64,000 bases of DNA from Sorangium aterium (GCF_028368935.1 NZ_JAQNDK010000002.1:1674001-1738000); one strand, 5' to 3'. Positions 26,017-36,856 are shown, counted from the first letter of the stretch. Numbers and translations: made by a program. Notes: a model not told the origin generated them from the sequence alone.

Positions 26017-26625
26017 TCAGCCTCCGTTTCGCAGCCAGCTGCGGAACGCCTTGACCGCCTCGTGTTGATCCGGCCAGCGCACGAAGCGCGCGAGCGCGAC
26101 GAGATCCAGATCCGGAATGAGCTCGCTGGCCGCGATGGGCTCGTATTGCTCACCGCGCAATGCATGAATGTGGAATGCGTCGCGCTCCCAGAACCAGACT
26201 TCGCGGACTCCGAGCCCGCTATACACAGGCAGCTTGTCGATCCCGCCGCTCGTCAACACCACCTCGATCGCGAACTCGGGGAATTCCTTCAGCGTGCTGC
26301 CAACGCAGTAGCACTCGTCGGGCTCGAGGCCGCGTGACTTGGCCTCGCGCCGGAACGTGGTCGAGCCGTAGCCGTAGAGAGGAACGTCCCGCTCCAGCGC
26401 GAAGAGCTCGATGAGGCGGGCGATGGTCGTCTTCGCCACTTCGTGTTCGGTCGACGGGCTCATCAGCTCCAGCGTTCCCTCGCAGAAGGTCATCCGCAGG
26501 CCGGGGGTGTCGAGCTCGTCCCGCAGCCTCACGTAGGTCTGCCAGGGAACGCCGTGGAGCACAAACCGCTGCTCCCCCGCAGGAGCGGTCGAGGACGGAA
26601 GCGGCATGTGCGCGGCGGCTACCAT
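26017..26625 (-). CDS. Uma2 family putative endonuclease (DUF820)
   Basis: This 202-aa protein has the Uma2/DUF820 pattern of a PD-(D/E)XK-like fold: an N-terminal part with YVRLRDELDTPGLRMTFCEG and LELMSPSTEHEVAKTTI, then GLEPDECYCVG, PEFAIEVVLTSGGIDKLPVYSGLGVREVWFW and a C-terminal IPDLDL helix. The candidate acidic and lysine residues are the D/E of EPDE and EFAIEVV, and K of DKLPVY. The cellular role of Uma2 proteins is unknown; they are strongly expanded in cyanobacteria and myxobacteria. The ATG at 26625 overlaps the upstream ATPase gene by 7 nt. It is the last gene of the minus-strand radical SAM cluster, perhaps only by read-through. Confidence 0.8.
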   Translation of the reverse strand: MVAAAHMPLPSSTAPAGEQRFVLHGVPWQTYVRLRDELDTPGLRMTFCEGTLELMSPSTEHEVAKTTIARLIELFALERDVPLYGYGSTTFRREAKSRGLEPDECYCVGSTLKEFPEFAIEVVLTSGGIDKLPVYSGLGVREVWFWERDAFHIHALRGEQYEPIAASELIPDLDLVALARFVRWPDQHEAVKAFRSWLRNGG

Positions 26626-27247: not shown

Positions 27248-28240
27248 CTATCGCCGCGCCCACCACACCGAGCCTGCGCCGCGCTCGATCGCCCGTCCGG
27301 CACGCGACATGAAGTGAGCGACGGCCTCCATGACGCCCGCGTGATCCTCGTTGTGGTCATGGCCGGCCAGGACGGCGCCCGGCTTGAGCCTTGGCCACCA
27401 GGCCTCGAGATCGGCGAGCACGGCCGCGCGGTCGTGCGAGCCGTCGAGGAACACGAGATCCAGACTGGCGTCCGCGAAGCGCGCCGCCGCGTCCGTGGAC
27501 GCCATCCGGAGGACGTCTGGCTGGATCCCGAGCGCCGCCATGTTCGCCTTGAACGCGCCGGGCACGTCCTCCGCGGCGAGCATGGCGCGATACCTGTCCG
27601 CGTACTTGTCGCTCGAGCCTCCCCAGGTGTCGACGCAATGGAGCGCAACCCCGTTTCTCGCGGCGAGCCGCCCGACGTACGCCGTGGAGAGCCCCTTCCA
27701 CGAGCCCACCTCGACCATCGCGCCTCCCCGGATGGGGCGCACAAGCGCCCGGTAGGAGAGGCCGTCCTCCTCGGAGAACCAGCCCTGGATGGGCGCGGCC
27801 CGGTTCACCGGGAAGAGCGCGAGCAGCGCTGCTCGCTTCTGCGCCGGATCGCGGTACTCGTACTGCCTGTCGCACAGCTTGACGAAGCAGCGGGCGTCGT
27901 GCGCGATGAACAGGGGCCGCTCGATCACGGCGAATTTCTTGAGCGACGTGGACCGCTCGGGCTCCCGCTCTCCTCTCCGGATCTCGCCTTCGGTCGTCGC
28001 GAAGATCACGTCTTCGTGCCGGATCGGCCGCCCTTGATCCGGGCCGTCGGTCCAGGCCCTCTCTCCGGGGTATCCGGCGCGGTCGGTGCCGTGCTCGAGG
28101 AGGCGAGCCAGCTTGTCCGCCTCGCTCGCGCGGAACAGGAGAAGGTGAGGAGTGCCGTGCGATTCGAGCTCGTCCAGGACCTCCTCGAGGAAGAGCAGGT
28201 TCCGGCCGATGTAAGGAACGGGAATGAGGAGCGGTGTCAT
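27248..28240 (-). CDS. Class I SAM-dependent methyltransferase with unknown N-terminal domain
   Basis: The protein is 330 aa. The C-terminal half is a Methyltransf_24-type fold: motif I GGAMVEVGSWKGLSTAYVG (about 173-191), an acidic strand-2 end (LHCVDTWGG), LDLVFLDGSHD and KPGAVLAGHDHNEDHAGV. The N-terminal 165 residues (beginning MTPLLIPVPYIGRNLLFLEE) match no domain I know, although they are well structured. The ATG at 28240 overlaps the upstream radical SAM stop in ATGA, a strong sign of coupled translation. A methylation step after the two radical SAM reactions is a natural reading, but the acceptor is unknown. Confidence 0.8.
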   Translation of the reverse strand: MTPLLIPVPYIGRNLLFLEEVLDELESHGTPHLLLFRASEADKLARLLEHGTDRAGYPGERAWTDGPDQGRPIRHEDVIFATTEGEIRRGEREPERSTSLKKFAVIERPLFIAHDARCFVKLCDRQYEYRDPAQKRAALLALFPVNRAAPIQGWFSEEDGLSYRALVRPIRGGAMVEVGSWKGLSTAYVGRLAARNGVALHCVDTWGGSSDKYADRYRAMLAAEDVPGAFKANMAALGIQPDVLRMASTDAAARFADASLDLVFLDGSHDRAAVLADLEAWWPRLKPGAVLAGHDHNEDHAGVMEAVAHFMSRAGRAIERGAGSVWWARR

Positions 28241-29313
28241 GACGTGGCCAGCGAGGCGCGCATCGAAGGGGGAGGGCCGAGGACGCCGTCCCACGGTTGC
28301 CAGGTGGAGGCGAGCCTCGCGTTGGGATGGAAGATGAGCTCGTGGACGATGCCCGGGCCCGAGCGCTTCGTCTCCTCGAGCTGGGCGAGGTCGGCCTCCT
28401 CGAAGACGACATCCATGTCCTCGAAGCGGAACACCTCGACATAGTAGTAATAGCCCACGATCTGCCGCTCGAACGAGAACCGCGCGTCGGCGCTCAGCGC
28501 GTCGAGGAGCGGATCGAGGCGGACGCGCGCGCGATCGCTGTATTTGACGACGTGGTTCTCGACCACCGCGGTCGGGTCGGTCTTCATCAGCTGCCGGAAG
28601 ATCACGTTGTCCACGCCGAGCGACCGGGCGAAGCGCAGGTATTCCACGATGGGCTCGACCGCGTCGATCTGCCCGTCGAGGAGCACGCAGGAGAGGCGCA
28701 CCCGGGTGCCGCCCGAGGTCGCCGCCGCCACGACGCTGCGGAGCTCGTCGGCGCGCAGGCCGTCCTTCATCACCATCAGCCGTGCGTTCCTGTCGTGATC
28801 GGGGTGGGCACGGCTGATGTTGAGGTGCTGCACGCCAGTGTCGACGATCCAGTCGATCACCCGCTTTCCTTCGCGTTGCTGGAGCAGCCCCGAGCCGTTC
28901 GTTGTGAGCGTCCGCTTGCGGCCCCGGTGGGCCTGCCCGAGCGCGAGGATGCGGGGCAATCGCGGATCATGGCTCGGCTCCCCGCCGGTCACCGAGACGG
29001 TCGGATCGAGCGGCCGGAGCGCTTCCAGGGACGCCGCCATGGCATCGAAATAGCGCCCATCGTCGTCCTCGACGGTCTTCTGCACGGACAGGCTGCGCCC
29101 GCGCGACGCTGGCCTCAGCTCCTCGACGCAGAAGTGGCATTTCGCGTTGCAGGGCTGACGGCTGTAGATGGAGAAGTTCGCGTTGCGATAGACCTCGACT
29201 GGCCGGCCCCAGAGGTCGAAGCGCACCGTGTCGCCGGCCGTGCTGTTGCCCTTGAGATCGAAGGCGCGGCTCTTCAGGCGGCGCCATTCCTCGCGGAAGG
29301 GACGGGCGCTCAC
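28237..29313 (-). CDS. Radical SAM protein (second of a tandem pair)
   Basis: The enzyme is 358 aa. The radical SAM cluster motif CNAKCHFC (C55, C59, C62) is preceded by NANFSIYSRQP, and GGEP follows at about 110-113. A strand with LTTNGSG and later NISRAHPDHDRNARL fits the partial TIM barrel. No C-terminal Cys cluster (SPASM/twitch) is visible, so there is probably a single 4Fe-4S cluster. The C-terminal 120 residues contain a Tyr run (GYYYYVEVFRF) not familiar from named families. The start is GTG 29313, which overlaps the preceding radical SAM stop (GTGA); the stop overlaps the methyltransferase start. Substrate is unknown. Confidence 0.85.
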   Translation of the reverse strand: MSARPFREEWRRLKSRAFDLKGNSTAGDTVRFDLWGRPVEVYRNANFSIYSRQPCNAKCHFCVEELRPASRGRSLSVQKTVEDDDGRYFDAMAASLEALRPLDPTVSVTGGEPSHDPRLPRILALGQAHRGRKRTLTTNGSGLLQQREGKRVIDWIVDTGVQHLNISRAHPDHDRNARLMVMKDGLRADELRSVVAAATSGGTRVRLSCVLLDGQIDAVEPIVEYLRFARSLGVDNVIFRQLMKTDPTAVVENHVVKYSDRARVRLDPLLDALSADARFSFERQIVGYYYYVEVFRFEDMDVVFEEADLAQLEETKRSGPGIVHELIFHPNARLASTWQPWDGVLGPPPSMRASLATS

Positions 29314-30056
29314 GGCAGCCTCCTCATGGCATCTGAGCGCGCCACGAGGTCGGGGCCGAAGGCGCTGCCGTCCGGGTTGAGCATCGTGAAATGGGTTCCG
29401 ACGAGGAAGGGCTCGTCCCAGTCGTCGCGCTTCTGCGCGAAGCCATAGCGCTGGAGGTGGAACACGTTGGCGAGCTCGATGAGCCCCGCGTCGCGCACTG
29501 CCTCGACGATCCATGCATCGCCGTCGGGCTCGGTCTTGCGCAACCGGACGTTCAGGACGAGCTGGCGATCGCCGCCGAGCGCCGAGAGCCGCTCGCGCAG
29601 GGCGCACGCGAGGGCAAGCAGGCCGCCGTCGTTCTCAAGGAGGTGGTGGTTCACCGAGAGCTTGATCGTGGCGGGCTCGCCGAGCTTCTGGAGCCAGGCG
29701 TCGAGCCCGGCCGGATCGCGCGGGATCTCGACGCCGTTGGTCACGACGACGACGCGCGCGCAGCGGGGCTCGGCGCGGGCGAGGCGGACCATCTCGTCGA
29801 AGTGCGGGTGGATCGTGGGCTCGCCGCCCTCGAGCTGCACCTCGAAGGGGCCCTCGGCCGGAAAGCTCGCGCGGTAGCGATCGAGGGCGAGGAAGGTCTG
29901 CCCCCGAGGCGACGAGCAGGTGCAGCACCACGGGCAGGAGCGGTTGCAGTGGTTCGACGTGGCCACGTAGAGCCGGTGCGGCCGCTCCGCCGTGGGGCGG
30001 TCGAGCGGCAGCGTGCCCGTGAGCGTGGCGTTCTGGGGGCGCGTCGCGGTCGGCAT
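29310..30056 (-). CDS. Radical SAM protein (first of a tandem pair)
   Basis: This short 248-aa radical SAM enzyme has the cluster motif CNRSCPWC (C37, C41, C44) after RLYVATSNH, followed by extra Cys (CCTCSS) that could bind metal or only be structural. EGGEP is at about 76-80, then VVVTNGVEIPR and KLSVNHHLLEN. No SPASM domain is present. The ATG at 30056 has an excellent AGGAGG Shine-Dalgarno 4 nt upstream, which settles the start although the frame is open further. The next gene begins inside its stop codon. A 40-codon ORF ends 64 nt upstream on the same strand. Confidence 0.85.
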   Translation of the reverse strand: MPTATRPQNATLTGTLPLDRPTAERPHRLYVATSNHCNRSCPWCCTCSSPRGQTFLALDRYRASFPAEGPFEVQLEGGEPTIHPHFDEMVRLARAEPRCARVVVVTNGVEIPRDPAGLDAWLQKLGEPATIKLSVNHHLLENDGGLLALACALRERLSALGGDRQLVLNVRLRKTEPDGDAWIVEAVRDAGLIELANVFHLQRYGFAQKRDDWDEPFLVGTHFTMLNPDGSAFGPDLVARSDAMRRLP

Positions 30057-30120
30057 GGAGCCTCCTGCGAGGAGGATACGGCGGGCAGGGGAGGGGATGA
30101 AGGAGATCCGGGGCGGCGGA

Positions 30121-30243
30121 TCACGGCGATGGGGCCATCGCGCCGAGGCCGAAGTGGGAGGCGTAGCCGAGGGCGATGGGGCCGCGGACGGGCTCGGCGA
30201 AGGTGAGGAGCAGGCCGAGGCTAGTGGCGATAGGGCGATGCAT
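30121..30243 (-). CDS. Small ORF (40 aa) upstream of tandem radical SAM genes, candidate precursor peptide
   Basis: A minus-strand ATG at 30243 opens a 40-codon frame ending in TGA at 30121. The peptide starts MHRPIATSLGLLLTFAEPVR and continues with GPIALGYASHFGLGAMAPSP. About nine in ten third codon positions are G or C (mostly C), as in real genes here, which favours coding. The N-terminal half is hydrophobic; the C-terminal half is rich in Gly, Ala, Tyr, His and Phe and could be a core peptide. No good Shine-Dalgarno is seen, and the match to any named precursor family is unknown. It lies 64 nt before the first radical SAM gene. Confidence 0.45.
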   Translation of the reverse strand: MHRPIATSLGLLLTFAEPVRGPIALGYASHFGLGAMAPSP

Positions 30244-30791
30244 TGCCGGCGAGGAGCATGGGGTCGTCTGCTCGCCGCCCGAGTCCGCGCTGCGCGGACA
30301 GCGTGTTCGCGAGTGCTAGGCGGGTCCTTGGGTATATCGGCAGCCGCGATTGGCCGGGCGGAGGCGTGCGCATAAACCGTTTGATTCTCAAGGAATTCAG
30401 AGCTGGCTGGTCGGATTGCCGCCTCTGCCATGTGGAGGAAGGGCGAATTGTTCGGGTTGAATCGGCAAAGCGAGCAGGTGAGCTAAATAGGTCAGCGATT
30501 GGGCTCGCCCGTCGAGACGACTTCAGCCAGGTGCGCCTCGCGGTACGGTCTGAGTGGCCGCTATTCTGTGTTAAGAGTCGGTGCTCACTGGAGACTTGTA
30601 GTAGAACGGCAACCGAGGCTCGCTTGACGAACCATGCCGCATGTCTAAAGACATGGTGTATGCAGCGAATCCGTGAGTTTGGCATGCCAGCGATCGAGCG
30701 GCCCCCGGTGCTTCCCCACATCGTCGAGTTTGGCGATGCAGGCCTAGTTGAAGTAGTGTCGGTGCGGCTGGTGGGTGCAGCTGCCTACACG
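30244..30791. other. Less GC-rich spacer between radical SAM locus and CRISPR array
   Basis: This 548-nt stretch has lower GC than its surroundings, especially 30360-30700. It may contain the promoter of the minus-strand cluster and the leader of the CRISPR array, but no confident -35/-10 was found. A plus-strand frame from GTG 30369 (VRINRLILKEFRAGWS...) runs into the first CRISPR repeat; its start recalls the first strand of SMC/AAA ATPases, but no Walker A follows, so it was not called as a gene. Confidence 0.4.
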
Positions 30792-31194
30792 CTCCGCCGC
30801 TGAAAGGCGGCGGCCCCATTGAAGCACGATCCTTACGCCGAGTTGCGGATTCCGTTCGGCCATCAGCTCTCCGCCGCTGAAAGGCGGCGGCCCCATTGAA
30901 GCCTTGGGCCTGCGACGTCGCCACCGTCAACATCGCGTCATCTCTCCGCCGCTGAAAGGCGGCGGCCCCATTGAAAGTTCTCCCTCGGCAGGATGAACGT
31001 CCCGGTCCACGTGCTCTCCGCCGTTGAAAGGCGGCGGCCCCATTGAAGCTGCCCTCACGGCTACCTCAAGTCGCACGCATGTCCTCTCTCCGCCGCTGAA
31101 GGGCGGCGGCCCCATTGAAGCTCCGACCCCTTCCCGCGCCGCACCTTCGACGGGACCCCCTCTCCGCCGTTGAAAGGCGGCGGCCCCATTGAAC
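30792..31194 (+). CRISPR. Orphan CRISPR array, six repeats and five spacers
   Basis: Six copies of a repeat with a 33-nt core (CTCCGCCGCTGAAAGGCGGC followed by GGCCCCATTGAAG) start at 30792, 30869, 30944, 31016, 31088 and 31162, with periods of 77, 75, 72, 72 and 74. The five spacers are all different. Inside each repeat, CCGCC pairs with GGCGG to form a hairpin. Repeats 4 and 6 carry C to T, repeat 5 has A to G, repeat 3 ends in A and repeat 6 in C. The ATTGAA(A/G) 3' end suggests that the plus strand is the crRNA sense. No cas gene is in the window. The first repeat differs at its 5' edge, and an IS element abuts the last one. Confidence 0.92.
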
Positions 31195-32854
31195 TTCACC
31201 TTCGCGCGTCGGAGCGGTAGCGGACGGGGGTTCAGTGATTCAGCGGCGCGCCGGACCGCGAATATGCGAGAAATGCGGTTTTCCGCTGCATCATCGCGAT
31301 GCGAGGGCACACCTCCCCCTTTCCCCAAATGCCGTCACAATGCTGGCCTGCCGCTCAGTTGAGCCAGCGTCCGAGCAACGACAGCTCCGGGGCGCGGAGG
31401 AGGCGCTCCCGTCCTGGGCCTCGTAGCAGGCGTCCTGGAGCGAGGATGAGCCCGCGGCGAAGCCACGGCGCGGTCCAGCGCGACAGCTCGGGGAATCGCC
31501 GGAGCGCGTAACGGCGCATCAGGTTGTGGGCGAGGAGCTTCAGAAGCAGCATCGCGTGGTTCGCGACGAAGGTATGGCTTGGAACCTGACCACAGCCCCA
31601 ACCGTGCTTGAGGTCGCGGATCAGCATCTCGACGCCAGCCCGAAGGTCGTAGCGGGCGGCGACGTCCTCCGGCGCTTCGACCATCTAGTTGGTGAGGTAG
31701 ACCTGCACGGGGTAGTCGAGATCGCCCCAGAGATAGATGGGCCTGGCGTGCGTCCGATCGAGCGTCCGGACGGCGATGACGCGGGCCGCGAGGTCTGCCC
31801 ATTCGCCGCGCCGGAACAGGACCTCCGCGACCTGGCGACGAGGCCGACCGTCCGCGTCCCAGTCCACGGTTTTCCAGCGGGTGACCAGGGAGATGGCACC
31901 AGCGAGATCGCGCGTAAGCCTGGGCTTGGTCAGGAAGAAGGCCCTCTTGTCAGCGATGGCCCGCAGCAGCTGGGTACAGTCGCCGGCGGCGTCAATGCGC
32001 ACGTAGACGGCGGCCTCGGGCGCCGCCGCGCGGACGCGATCGAGGCAGCGCTCGACGTCGGGCACGTCATCGTTGCCGAAGTTCGTGTCTCCCGGCCGGA
32101 GCTGGGCGCCGATGACGGTGTTGGTTTCGGCGACGCGGACGAGCCGCGGGTGATAGCTGGGCCTGCCGTGGTAGCGAGGATTGGGTCCCGGTCGGGCTCC
32201 TTCCTGCGAGCCGAACAGCGGCTCGACGGTGGTGTCCACGTCCAGATGGATGATGTCGGGCGGCGCCTTGGCGAGCGGAGCGAGCCCGTGCTCGGCGAGC
32301 ATCGAATCGAGCGCGGCGAGCGCCTTGTCGTCGAAGCGGCGGAGGTCACGGTAGACCCTGTCGATGCTGGGCACGACGCCACCGGCCAGGTGCACGAAGA
32401 GCGGGTCGTTCGCCGGCGCCTCCAGGCCGAAGACCCGCGCCTCCCCGGCCACGGCGGCGTCGATGAGCAGCCGCATCTGGGCGGCCATGGGGAAGACAAC
32501 ACGGCTGTCCGGCTTGAGTCGACCGAACGTGCGCTGGAGCTCGGCGTCGACATCGAGCTCACGGAGGAAGACACCGAAGCCGACCAGCCCCGCCACGCCG
32601 GTGAGCGTCGTCTCCGTCGCGCGGAGGTGCACCGCACGCGGATCGGGACGGCGGACGCGGGCGCGTCGAGGCGGGGTCGGTTTGGGCTCGTTTCGGCGGA
32701 TGCGCCGTCGCACCTTCGAGGTGCTCGGCGTGCGCTTGCGTTGGGTCATAACAAACGCAACGGGTGCGCACGCCGAGCCTTTTCTTCAATGCATTCCGTT
32801 TTGCGGCGTCAGTTTGCCACTTTTTTGAATGGCTCAGGACGCGCGAAATTCAGG
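31194..32854 (-). mobile_element. IS1380-type insertion sequence (degenerate)
   Basis: The element carries a transposase gene broken by one stop codon. TTCGCGCGTC at 31201-31210 recurs in inverted orientation at 32838-32847, with a GGAGC/TGAGC continuation inwards, so the ends are probably about 31194 and 32854, a length of about 1.66 kb as usual for IS1380. No matching target-site duplication was found (flanks TGAA and CTCA). The left end falls immediately after the last CRISPR repeat. Confidence 0.6.
31355..32749 (-). pseudogene. IS1380 family transposase interrupted by an in-frame TAG
   Basis: From ATG 32749 the frame encodes an IS1380-type DDE transposase with TTLTGVAGLVGFGVFLREL near the start, DIIHLDVDTTVEPLFGSQ, GPNPRYHGRPSYHPRL, the acidic stretch VYVRIDAAGD, and VQVYLTN before a TAG at 31685-31687. 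The next codon, in the same frame, is ATG, and the family sequence continues as MVEAPEDVAARYDLRAGVEM to 31355, including LIRDLKHGWGCGQVPSH with the usual terminal catalytic acid region. One nonsense mutation therefore splits an otherwise full-length (about 464-residue) protein. It is either a pseudogene or is expressed as two pieces. Confidence 0.85.
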
Positions 32855-34192: not shown

Positions 34193-36856
34193 GTGCAGGC
34201 GCCCTCGCCCTCCGCCCTCTTCCAGCTCCGCGTCGACGCGCCCGGGACACCCGATCTGGAGGTCGTGCGCTTTCGAGGGATCGAGAGGCTCTCACGCTGC
34301 TTCTCCTTCGATGTCACCGCGCGGCTCGACGCCGGGGCGATCGATGAGGCGACCCTCGCCGCCGCGCTGATGGAGCGGCCCGCGTCCCTGCGCGTGCCCA
34401 CCTCGGCGACCGAGGCGCGCGCGGTGACCGGCGTCGTCACCCGGGTGAGCGTCGAGGGCGCCGACGGCGACGGGCGCGCCGTCGTCCGCGTGCGCATCGA
34501 GCCGCGGCTCGCCCTCCTCGGCGAGGGGCGGCAGAGCCGGATCTTCCAGGAACAACCCCTCTCGGGCGTCCTCGGCGCCGTGCTCGCCGAGGCGGGGCTG
34601 CCCCACCGCTTCTCCCTCGCCGCGCCCCGGCCCCCGCGCGTCTACTGCGTCCAGCACCAGGAGAGCGATCTCGCCTTCATCACCAGGCTCTGCGCGGAGG
34701 ACGGCGTCTTCTTCTGGTTCGAGCCGCCCGAGGGCGGCGATGGCGATCCGGCGGCGCCCGAGGTGATCGTCTTCGCCGATTCGCCCGGGGCCTACGCGCA
34801 GATCGCCGGCGATCCCACGCTCGCCTACCGCCAGGCGACGGGCGCCGCCGCGCTCGCTCCCGAGGAGCGGCACGTGACGCGGTTCGTGCGGAGGCAGGCG
34901 AAGGCGCCGCGCGGCGCGCGGGTGAAGGGCTTCGACTTCGCGCGGCCGGCGCTCGATCTCGGCGCGGCCCGAGGGGAGGCGATCCGGGCGCGCACGACGT
35001 ACGATCACCACGATCACGACGAGAGGATCGACGCCGGCGCCGAGCGGGCGCAGATCGCGCTGGAGCAGGCCCGGGCGCGCGCGGATCTCGGCGAGGGCGC
35101 GTCGTGGTGCAGGCGGCTCGCGCCGGGGCACAGGTTCTCGCTGGAGGGCCACGACGTCGCCGCGCTCAACGGGCGCTACGTGCTGACCCGGGTCGAGCAC
35201 GAGGGCCACAACGCGCACCTCTCGGGCAGCGACGGGCCGAGCTACGAGGCGCGCTTCCGCTGCGCGCCCGAGGCCGTGCCGGTGAGGCCCCCCGCGCCCC
35301 GCGCGTCGGTGCGGCAGGCGCTCGAGACCGCGACCGTCGTCGGCCCGCCCGGCGAGGAGATCCACACCGACGCGCTCGGCCGCGTGAAGGTGCAGTTCCA
35401 CTGGGACCTCGACGGCGCGCGCGACGACAGGAGCTCGTGCTGGCTCCGCGTCGCGACGCCGTGGGCGGGCGCGGGCTGGGGCTTCCAGTTCGTGCCTCGC
35501 GTGGGGATGGAGGTCCTCGTCGGCTTCCTCGGCGGCGATCTCGACCGCCCCGTCGTCGTGGGCGCGCTCCACAACGGCCTCCACGCGCCGACGCACCCGC
35601 TGCCGCGCTCGCGCTCGCGGAGCGGCATCCGCACGCAGTCGACGCCGGGCGGCGGCGGATACAACGAGATCGCCTTCGAGGACCGGGCCGGCGGCGAGCA
35701 GGTGGTGATCCGCGCGCAGCGCGATCTCGACGCCTCGATAGAGAACGACGCCACGGAGACCGTCGGCCGCGACAAGACCCTCAACGTCGCGGGGAAGCAG
35801 GTCGTCCGCGTCGAGGGCGACCGCGACGATCACGTCACGGGGGCGCTCGTCGAGGTCGTCGAGGGCGGCGCATCGAGGAGCTGCGGCGGCGACGCGCGCG
35901 GCCGCACCACGGGCAGCGTCGCGGAGGAGATCCTCCAGAACCGGAGCGTCGAGGTGCACGGCACGGACACGGCCACGCTCCACGGCGGCTCGACGACCGT
36001 GGTGGGCGGCCCGCACGTGCTCCGCGTCGACGCCGAGCACACGCTGCTCGTGGGCGAGGGCCGCGACGACGGCCAGGCCGAGGTCTCGGTGTCGCGCAAG
36101 TACCTGCTCTCCTCGGGCAGCGTGATCCGCGTCCGCGCCGAGGACTCGATCGTGCTCGAGTCGGGCCAGAGCTCGATCGAGGTCACGCCGAAGGGCGTGG
36201 TCATCCGGGCGAGGTCGATCGAGGTCGTGGGCTCGGAGCGCGCGTCGCTGTCCGGCCCGGGCCCGGCGGTGCGGCTCGCGAGCGACGCGGAGATCGTGTC
36301 GAAGGTCGTCAAGATCTACGGCGAGGAGGCGTCGATCGAGCTCGGCAAGAAGGCGAGCGTGAAGGGCGAGCAGGTGCTCCTCAACTGCGACGAGGGCGCG
36401 CCCGAGCCGCCGGAGGACGGCGAGGCGCCGCCGGGGACGAAGAGGTTCAGCATCCGGCTGACCGACGAGCGGTTCGAGCCCTACGCCGGCAAGCGGTTCA
36501 AGATGGTGTGCGAGGGCCTGAAGCTCGACGGCGAGACGGGCCGTGACGGATCCATCGAGGCGGACGTGCCGGAGGCGGCGAGGACGGCGGAGATCACGCT
36601 GTGGCTCGGCGAGTTCCCCACGGGGCAGGTGCGGCGCTACTCGATCCAGATCGAGGACCTGCCGGCGCCGACGTCGATCGCCGGAGCGCAGATCCGGCTC
36701 AAGAACCTCGGGTATTACCGGGGCGCGGGCAAGGGGGAGATCGACGACGAGACGCGCGCCTCGCTGCGGAGGTTCCAGAGCGACCACGCGCTGGAGCCGA
36801 CGGGGGAGCTCGACGGGGCGACCGCCGGGTCGATCGTCGAGCGGCACGGGAGCTGA
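34193..36856 (+). CDS. vgrG: Type VI secretion VgrG spike protein with C-terminal peptidoglycan-binding domain
   Basis: The protein is 887 aa. The N-terminal gp27-like part has FQLRVDAPGTPDLEVVRFRG, HRFSLAAPRPPRVYCVQHQESDLAFITRL and ED(G)VFFWFEP. The gp5-like OB region has EIHTDALGRVKVQFHWDLDG, WGFQFVPRVGMEVLVGFL and GDLDRPVVVGALHN, followed by the beta-helix spike. The last 60 residues (AGAQIRLKNLGYYRGAGKGE, then FQSDHALEPTGELDG) are a PG_binding_1 domain, so this is an 'evolved' VgrG carrying a wall-binding tip. The GTG at 34193 is used; no better start is seen. The downstream gene follows after 26 nt. No T6SS sheath or baseplate genes are in the window, so this is an orphan vgrG island. 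Confidence 0.93.
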   Translation: MQAPSPSALFQLRVDAPGTPDLEVVRFRGIERLSRCFSFDVTARLDAGAIDEATLAAALMERPASLRVPTSATEARAVTGVVTRVSVEGADGDGRAVVRVRIEPRLALLGEGRQSRIFQEQPLSGVLGAVLAEAGLPHRFSLAAPRPPRVYCVQHQESDLAFITRLCAEDGVFFWFEPPEGGDGDPAAPEVIVFADSPGAYAQIAGDPTLAYRQATGAAALAPEERHVTRFVRRQAKAPRGARVKGFDFARPALDLGAARGEAIRARTTYDHHDHDERIDAGAERAQIALEQARARADLGEGASWCRRLAPGHRFSLEGHDVAALNGRYVLTRVEHEGHNAHLSGSDGPSYEARFRCAPEAVPVRPPAPRASVRQALETATVVGPPGEEIHTDALGRVKVQFHWDLDGARDDRSSCWLRVATPWAGAGWGFQFVPRVGMEVLVGFLGGDLDRPVVVGALHNGLHAPTHPLPRSRSRSGIRTQSTPGGGGYNEIAFEDRAGGEQVVIRAQRDLDASIENDATETVGRDKTLNVAGKQVVRVEGDRDDHVTGALVEVVEGGASRSCGGDARGRTTGSVAEEILQNRSVEVHGTDTATLHGGSTTVVGGPHVLRVDAEHTLLVGEGRDDGQAEVSVSRKYLLSSGSVIRVRAEDSIVLESGQSSIEVTPKGVVIRARSIEVVGSERASLSGPGPAVRLASDAEIVSKVVKIYGEEASIELGKKASVKGEQVLLNCDEGAPEPPEDGEAPPGTKRFSIRLTDERFEPYAGKRFKMVCEGLKLDGETGRDGSIEADVPEAARTAEITLWLGEFPTGQVRRYSIQIEDLPAPTSIAGAQIRLKNLGYYRGAGKGEIDDETRASLRRFQSDHALEPTGELDGATAGSIVERHGS

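Follow-up and report, generated by a model that had tools for sequence, protein, structure and literature searches.

Introduction

Several described families of radical S-adenosylmethionine (SAM) enzymes resemble the system reported here, namely MoaA (GTP 3',8-cyclase), the prokaryotic viperins (pVip), the nucleoside-antibiotic enzymes AbmM and BlsE, and the HxsB/HxsC pair of the His-Xaa-Ser system, in which two different radical SAM genes are adjacent in a small cassette. In albomycin thionucleoside synthesis, AbmM is encoded in a cluster together with a second radical SAM gene and a gene for a nucleoside kinase, and radical SAM enzymes are known to be paired with nucleoside kinases in thionucleoside clusters (PMC12691670). 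Further, one subtype of the MoxR-vWA ternary conflict systems is described with a radical SAM effector (Kaur et al., 2020; PMC7159879). In this work, we analyzed 64,000 nucleotides of Sorangium aterium DNA (GCF_028368935.1, NZ_JAQNDK010000002.1:1674001-1738000; hereafter the window), from a genome of 13.5 Mb, which carry a cassette of two radical SAM genes (rSAM1 and rSAM2), a methyltransferase gene with an additional N-terminal domain (N-domain), and a gene for a P-loop NTPase of the AAA_28 family. We show that rSAM1 and rSAM2 are a real unit, inherited together and apparently undescribed so far, and we regard the cassette as representing a rare, horizontally spread two-enzyme system. The novelty lies in two radical SAM enzymes that are coupled in evolution, occur with exchangeable partner sets and are also carried by phages; we place the system among the uncharacterised radical SAM modification systems.

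Results and Discussion

The radical SAM pair is inherited as a unit

Homologues of rSAM2 were identified in three Sorangium genomes, in another genome of the same order (G181), and in metagenome-assembled genomes (MAGs) of Obscuribacterales (64%), Helarchaeota (46%) and Woesearchaeota (40%), with four further genomes from the class of the Helarchaeota record, one from that of the Obscuribacterales record, and eight more Myxococcota; for the archaeal and Obscuribacterales MAGs, the taxonomic assignment is that of the deposited records. Among phages, homologues were present in eight IMG/VR contigs (375 kb at most), including two near-identical couples, and in Dulem virus 40, a complete circular phage in which the pair is annotated as Fe-S oxidoreductase and molybdenum-cofactor enzyme, giving nine phage records with the pair. 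The system is nonetheless rare: the pair was detected in 1 of 103 genomes of the Woesearchaeote's order, and rSAM2 homologues in 5/83 and 3/240 genomes of the Helarchaeota and Obscuribacterales record classes (one of the latter three being distant) and in 14 of 379 Myxococcota genomes, four of which hold distant single homologues.

rSAM1 is the neighbor of rSAM2 in every phage locus found, in some of them across a paralogue, and in the core cellular loci with two exceptions, and the two genes overlap or nearly touch. The exceptions, L129 and L132, come from two genomes of one genus, which encode a full-length rSAM1 on another contig (E ~1e-71). The trees of both enzymes agree closely, with a Mantel r of 0.88 for 27 loci and 0.90 for 16 dereplicated cellular loci, against a permutation maximum of 0.57. 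Occurrence without rSAM1 was limited to a distant rSAM2-like family (L133-L136 and L013-L017; E 1e-41 to 1e-49), outside the core, and no known pathway gave a match; either outcome in the core would have spoken against the modification system proposed in an earlier annotation of this DNA, made from the sequence alone (the first-pass annotation). The neighborhood survey that it called for showed the pair recurring with the N-domain and the NTPase in distant genomes. A gene similar to the distant single family sits on a Hymenobacter plasmid (H2). Searches of open-access text on such a pair, on DVU_1553/TrsS and on tandem radical SAM genes of phages turned up no description of it.

Two enzyme families outside the named models

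On motif and profile evidence, rSAM1 and rSAM2 are assigned to the radical SAM superfamily: the Pfam model Radical_SAM (PF04055, cut-off 29.5 bits) is matched by rSAM2 at 33.4 bits and by rSAM1 at 27.3 bits, just short of the cut-off. The CxxxCxxC motif is invariant in 27 rSAM1 and 29 rSAM2 homologues, and the sole further invariant cysteine is Cys209 of rSAM2. Since the conserved cysteines amount to the three SAM-cluster ligands of each enzyme plus Cys209, neither a SPASM nor a second MoaA-type cluster is predicted. Neither enzyme reached any NCBIfam cut-off in hidden Markov model searches. The first-pass annotation, which had read two distinct radical SAM motifs, no SPASM cysteines and no named family by eye, was thus borne out (Table 1).

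One of the closest described counterparts of rSAM2 is MoaA, which it resembles in fold, in giving the best or near-best model match and in carrying CxxxCxxC near the N-terminus; it differs in falling far under the equivalog cut-off (TIGR02666, 40.4 of 284 bits), in having no second 4Fe-4S cysteine set and in its pairing with rSAM1, and no molybdenum cofactor genes were seen near the pair. The predicted rSAM2 structure (mean predicted local distance difference test, pLDDT, 85.5) lies nearest to MoaA (Z 19.7) and the tetraether synthase GDGT-MAS (Z 19.6), followed by SuiB (17.3) and the viperins (~17). With pVip, rSAM2 shares a single cluster, kinase neighbors and weak matches to the model NF038283 from all members (12/12, best 3.7e-17, below cut-off; 23.3 of 180 bits for the window's enzyme), but it differs in these subthreshold scores, in its radical SAM partner and in its other partner sets. 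The nearest solved relatives of rSAM1 are YydG, AbmM (8wm2), tetraether synthase, MoaA and BlsE (cytosylglucuronate), with AbmM and BlsE among the best matches of the single sequence; in contrast to AbmM and BlsE, rSAM1 is a near-minimal barrel of ~220-250 amino acids with similarity confined to the core, and no other albomycin or blasticidin genes were seen at the pair. The likeness to HxsB/HxsC is one of arrangement, as no His-Xaa-Ser peptide was found and scores fell far under the cut-offs (rSAM1 against HxsC, 17.5 of 267.9 bits; rSAM2 against HxsC4, 33.6 of 500 bits).

Exchangeable partner sets

Two partner sets, A and B, are exchanged around the pair. Set A (L005, L006, L033, L120, L122-L124 and L131, with its ligase also at the contig end in L121 and L127) comprises a MoxR-type ATPase, a HExxH protein with a vWA-like DxSxS motif, two small families and an AMP-dependent ligase. 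The ATPase occurs in five of these loci, among them L005, L033, L123 and L124; the HExxH and vWA assignments were made by eye, with no Pfam match; and the ligase is related to the DVU_1553 family (NF045666, 113 and 109 bits, below the cut-off of 300). Set A resembles the MoxR-vWA ternary systems in its ATPase and vWA-like protein, and differs from them in the presence of a radical SAM pair and an AMP ligase; it is absent from the window, where no MoxR AAA+ or vWA protein lies beside the cassette. Set B, the N-domain with AAA_28, is found in the window, in L002, L125 and L126, and in the Woesearchaeote locus L007, in which both are fused directly after rSAM2 and share 45% (N-domain) and 46% (AAA_28) identity with the window's versions. 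A methyltransferase is inserted only in the myxobacterial set-B versions. The two sets are linked by L128-L130 and L132, in which the N-domain alone occurs with a diverged AMP ligase.

The N-domain, recognized in the first-pass annotation as an unfamiliar extension of the methyltransferase, is to judge from its sequence a new family with invariant R37, E40, GTDR (51-54), G56, W63, L100 and K102, and a nearly invariant H50. It was detected in 7 of the 379 Myxococcota genomes, all of them within the 10 with a core rSAM2, and in 0 of the 369 others (Fisher 6e-13); two scans of phages and the collected phage records yielded none. A profile search of solved structures gave no real match, and an AlphaFold model built from five sequences was unusable (pLDDT 44). 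A resemblance to ADP-ribosyltransferases, which are marked by R-S-E or H-Y-E residues, was seen by eye in the sequence pattern, and the N-domain is at most a candidate for that fold.

Some phages carry the pair with additional genes. Four contigs (L055, L056, L058 and L060) have a third, rSAM2-like radical SAM gene between rSAM1 and rSAM2; in the large-phage records L044 (7000-7962), L045 (6944-7882) and L049 (6963-7898), an rSAM2-related gene lies in that position.

Readings of function

Given that two families outside the named models stayed together from archaea to large phages, rSAM1 and rSAM2 almost certainly share one reaction or product, and in Sorangium the private N-domain and the kinase connect the cassette with that product. 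An answer would bring new radical chemistry, explain what is done by the phage genes that carry the labels 'molybdenum cofactor biosynthesis enzyme' or 'Fe-S oxidoreductase', and assign a role to a biosynthetic-looking myxobacterial cassette with no sign of a ribosomally synthesized and post-translationally modified peptide (RiPP).

With a probability of about one in three (0.35), and in preference to a RiPP, we tentatively favor a pair that acts on one small molecule, a nucleoside, nucleotide or dinucleotide of the nicotinamide adenine dinucleotide (NAD) type, because of the likeness to MoaA, viperin and AbmM, the adjoining kinases and the flanking NAD genes, each of which is an indirect indication. 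The adjoining P-loop kinases are of two kinds, AAA_28 in myxobacteria and in the Woesearchaeote, and a CoaE-like kinase that follows the radical SAM triple in phage L044. NAD genes flank it twice independently: in phage L048 (5968-13507), NAPRTase, NAD synthase and CTP_transf_like genes enclose the pair and an additional radical SAM gene, and in L007 the neighbors are a flavoprotein, NadB-like by motif, and a protein with a NAD_kinase match of 3.3e-5, just under the cut-off. The two enzymes would share one substrate, working one after the other or as a complex: rSAM2 would perform MoaA- or viperin-like chemistry on the sugar or the base, a second radical step would fall to rSAM1, and pathway-specific tailoring enzymes would then work on the product. 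Tailoring might be carried out by the AAA_28 kinase and the O-methyltransferase in Sorangium, where the N-domain would bind or transfer the product, and by the AMP-dependent ligase with the MoxR/vWA machine in set A; in phages the pair would work by itself or, in some cases, alongside a third radical SAM enzyme and a kinase.

Several observations weigh against a nucleotide or NAD-type substrate. As GDGT-MAS and the peptide enzyme SuiB are also near rSAM2, fold similarity leaves the substrate unfixed; the peptide epimerase YydG scores slightly above AbmM with the rSAM1 profile; and the AAA_28 profile found no useful match among solved structures. Large phages often encode kinases and NAD genes, and those near the pair may be bystanders; the set-A partners (AMP ligase, MoxR, vWA) do not obviously suit a nucleotide. 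A more elaborate proposal, in which an obligate pair common to archaea, bacteria and phages produces a novel molecule derived from a nucleotide or NAD that is used by the N-domain, as a new enzyme or effector, and traded by cells and phages in a conflict or signalling role, is speculative and we hold it to be improbable.

The closest competitor, still a doubtful one, is that the pair modifies a partner protein and not a classical leader-core RiPP, the most likely target being the N-domain (alone or fused to the kinase or methyltransferase) or one of the proteins in the MoxR/vWA set. Among the sampled Myxococcota the N-domain was found only with rSAM2, which in L129 and L132 it follows directly. 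A protein substrate, possibly this domain itself, has to be taken seriously as a rival. YydG (EpeE) is the top solved match of the rSAM1 profile, SuiB, SkfB and ChlB are in the rSAM2 fold list, and tandem radical SAM enzymes are known in peptide systems, as the NCBIfam names HxsB and HxsC illustrate. Against this stand the phages and most set-A loci, which gave no N-domain match, the lack of SPASM or Twitch cysteines and of a HxsA-type peptide, and the lack of a recurrent short open reading frame (ORF): clustering of ORFs of at least 45 or at least 60 amino acids revealed no short family common to unrelated loci, while ORFs under 45 amino acids were checked only upstream in Sorangium.

A role in conflict is unlikely, although the patchy spread over domains and into phages would agree with it. 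The pair would here make an effector in a MoxR-vWA type system, as suggested by the resemblance of the set-A ATPase and vWA/HExxH protein to the ternary systems (PMC7159879), or a viperin-like antiviral nucleotide, as suggested by the weak pVip similarity, with the phage copies serving as counter-measures or as weapons directed at other phages. The Sorangium cassette does lie beside a CRISPR (clustered regularly interspaced short palindromic repeats) locus and a Uma2/PDC-S17 gene, but this CRISPR neighborhood was seen only in Sorangium and not in G911 or G921; none of the PADLOC models matches the radical SAM genes convincingly; and the phage loci are the bare pair, with no defence gene shared by their flanks.

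Rather unlikely as well is a pathway modifying a cofactor, lipid or RNA (molybdopterin-like, tetraether-like or RNA). The two folds nearest to rSAM2, those of MoaA and GDGT-MAS, would suit such a pathway, as would the kinship of the set-A ligase with the DVU_1553 family and a weak one of rSAM1 with TrsS; yet the MoaA cut-off is missed by far and the second cluster is lacking, no tRNA- or lipid-handling partner recurs, and the very patchy distribution is unlike that of a cofactor pathway.

Radical SAM and methyltransferase genes are numerous in large myxobacterial genomes, and several weak rSAM1-like matches occur in genome G000, but an accidental grouping of unrelated Sorangium secondary-metabolism genes, with no shared function, is contradicted by the joint occurrence and matching trees of the pair in different phyla, domains and phages, and can be set aside.

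The Sorangium cassette and its surroundings

The four genes run head to tail on the minus strand in the order rSAM1, rSAM2, N-domain/methyltransferase and AAA_28 (Table 1). As the first-pass annotation had it, the first three are joined by 4-nt overlaps (GTGA at 29310-29313 and ATGA at 28237-28240, both exact) and the NTPase follows closely, its gene starting 5-11 nt past the end of the methyltransferase gene, which itself falls just outside the span of 28237-30243 given at the time. Pfam matches identified Methyltransf_24 (4.8e-24), in a methyltransferase of class I, and AAA_28 (7.3e-30). The first three genes are under purifying selection between Sorangium strains, with nonsynonymous divergence (dN) of 0.035-0.072 against synonymous divergence (dS) of 0.23-0.36. 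A promoter and terminator scan of the locus gave nothing informative.

Table 1. Features of the radical SAM cassette and the adjoining CRISPR remnant, in window coordinates.
Feature	Coordinates	Strand	Remarks
rSAM1, 248 aa, short radical SAM enzyme	29310..30056	minus	CNRSCPWC motif; no auxiliary-cluster Cys
rSAM2, 358 aa, GTG start, MoaA/viperin-like radical SAM	28237..29313	minus	CNAKCHFC; family motif GYYYYVE
N-domain (residues 1-148) fused to Methyltransf_24 domain (residues ~150-330)	27248..28240	minus	
AAA_28 P-loop NTPase/kinase-like protein, 207 aa	26619..27242	minus	Conserved HxCPxC and LERGYxD
Csb2/Cas5-6g C-terminal remnant (type I-G CRISPR), 40-aa ORF	30121..30243	minus	Outside cassette
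CRISPR array, 6 repeats of ~34-36 nt, spacing 72-77 nt	30790..31193		Neighbor, outside cassette

The short G/C3-biased ORF just upstream of rSAM1, previously offered as a candidate peptide, proved to be something else. It matches positions 462-491 of 492 of TIGR02165 (Csb2; 2.5e-8) and PADLOC Cas56g (4.8e-11), and aligns to the Csb2 C-terminus of another Sorangium strain. In the Sorangium loci L002-L004, a type I-G cas operon (csb1, csb2, cas3 and a Cas3-extension gene) lies directly upstream of rSAM1, with its families confirmed in L002 and judged from the same ORFs in L003 and L004, and the sequence shared with the window upstream of rSAM1 is limited to the last 40-120 bp. The RiPP reading thereby loses its candidate precursor, which was ruled out as debris of the Csb2 C-terminus, and, among the clustered ORFs of at least 45 amino acids, no short one recurs across the loci to replace it. 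Judging by these matches, positions 30121-31193 represent a decayed type I-G CRISPR locus.

A DDE transposase gene (PF13701, 4.6e-19) at 31685-32749 is located directly beside this remnant and may have contributed to the loss of the cas genes. Downstream of the cassette, a Uma2-family protein at 26017-26601 strongly matches the PADLOC candidate PDC-S17 (2.6e-71) and is conserved at this position in Sorangium. Also near the cassette is a large ORF (34193-36856) that by eye resembles a VgrG-type spike, and a cobalamin riboswitch (94 bits) was detected on the minus strand at 1980-2187.

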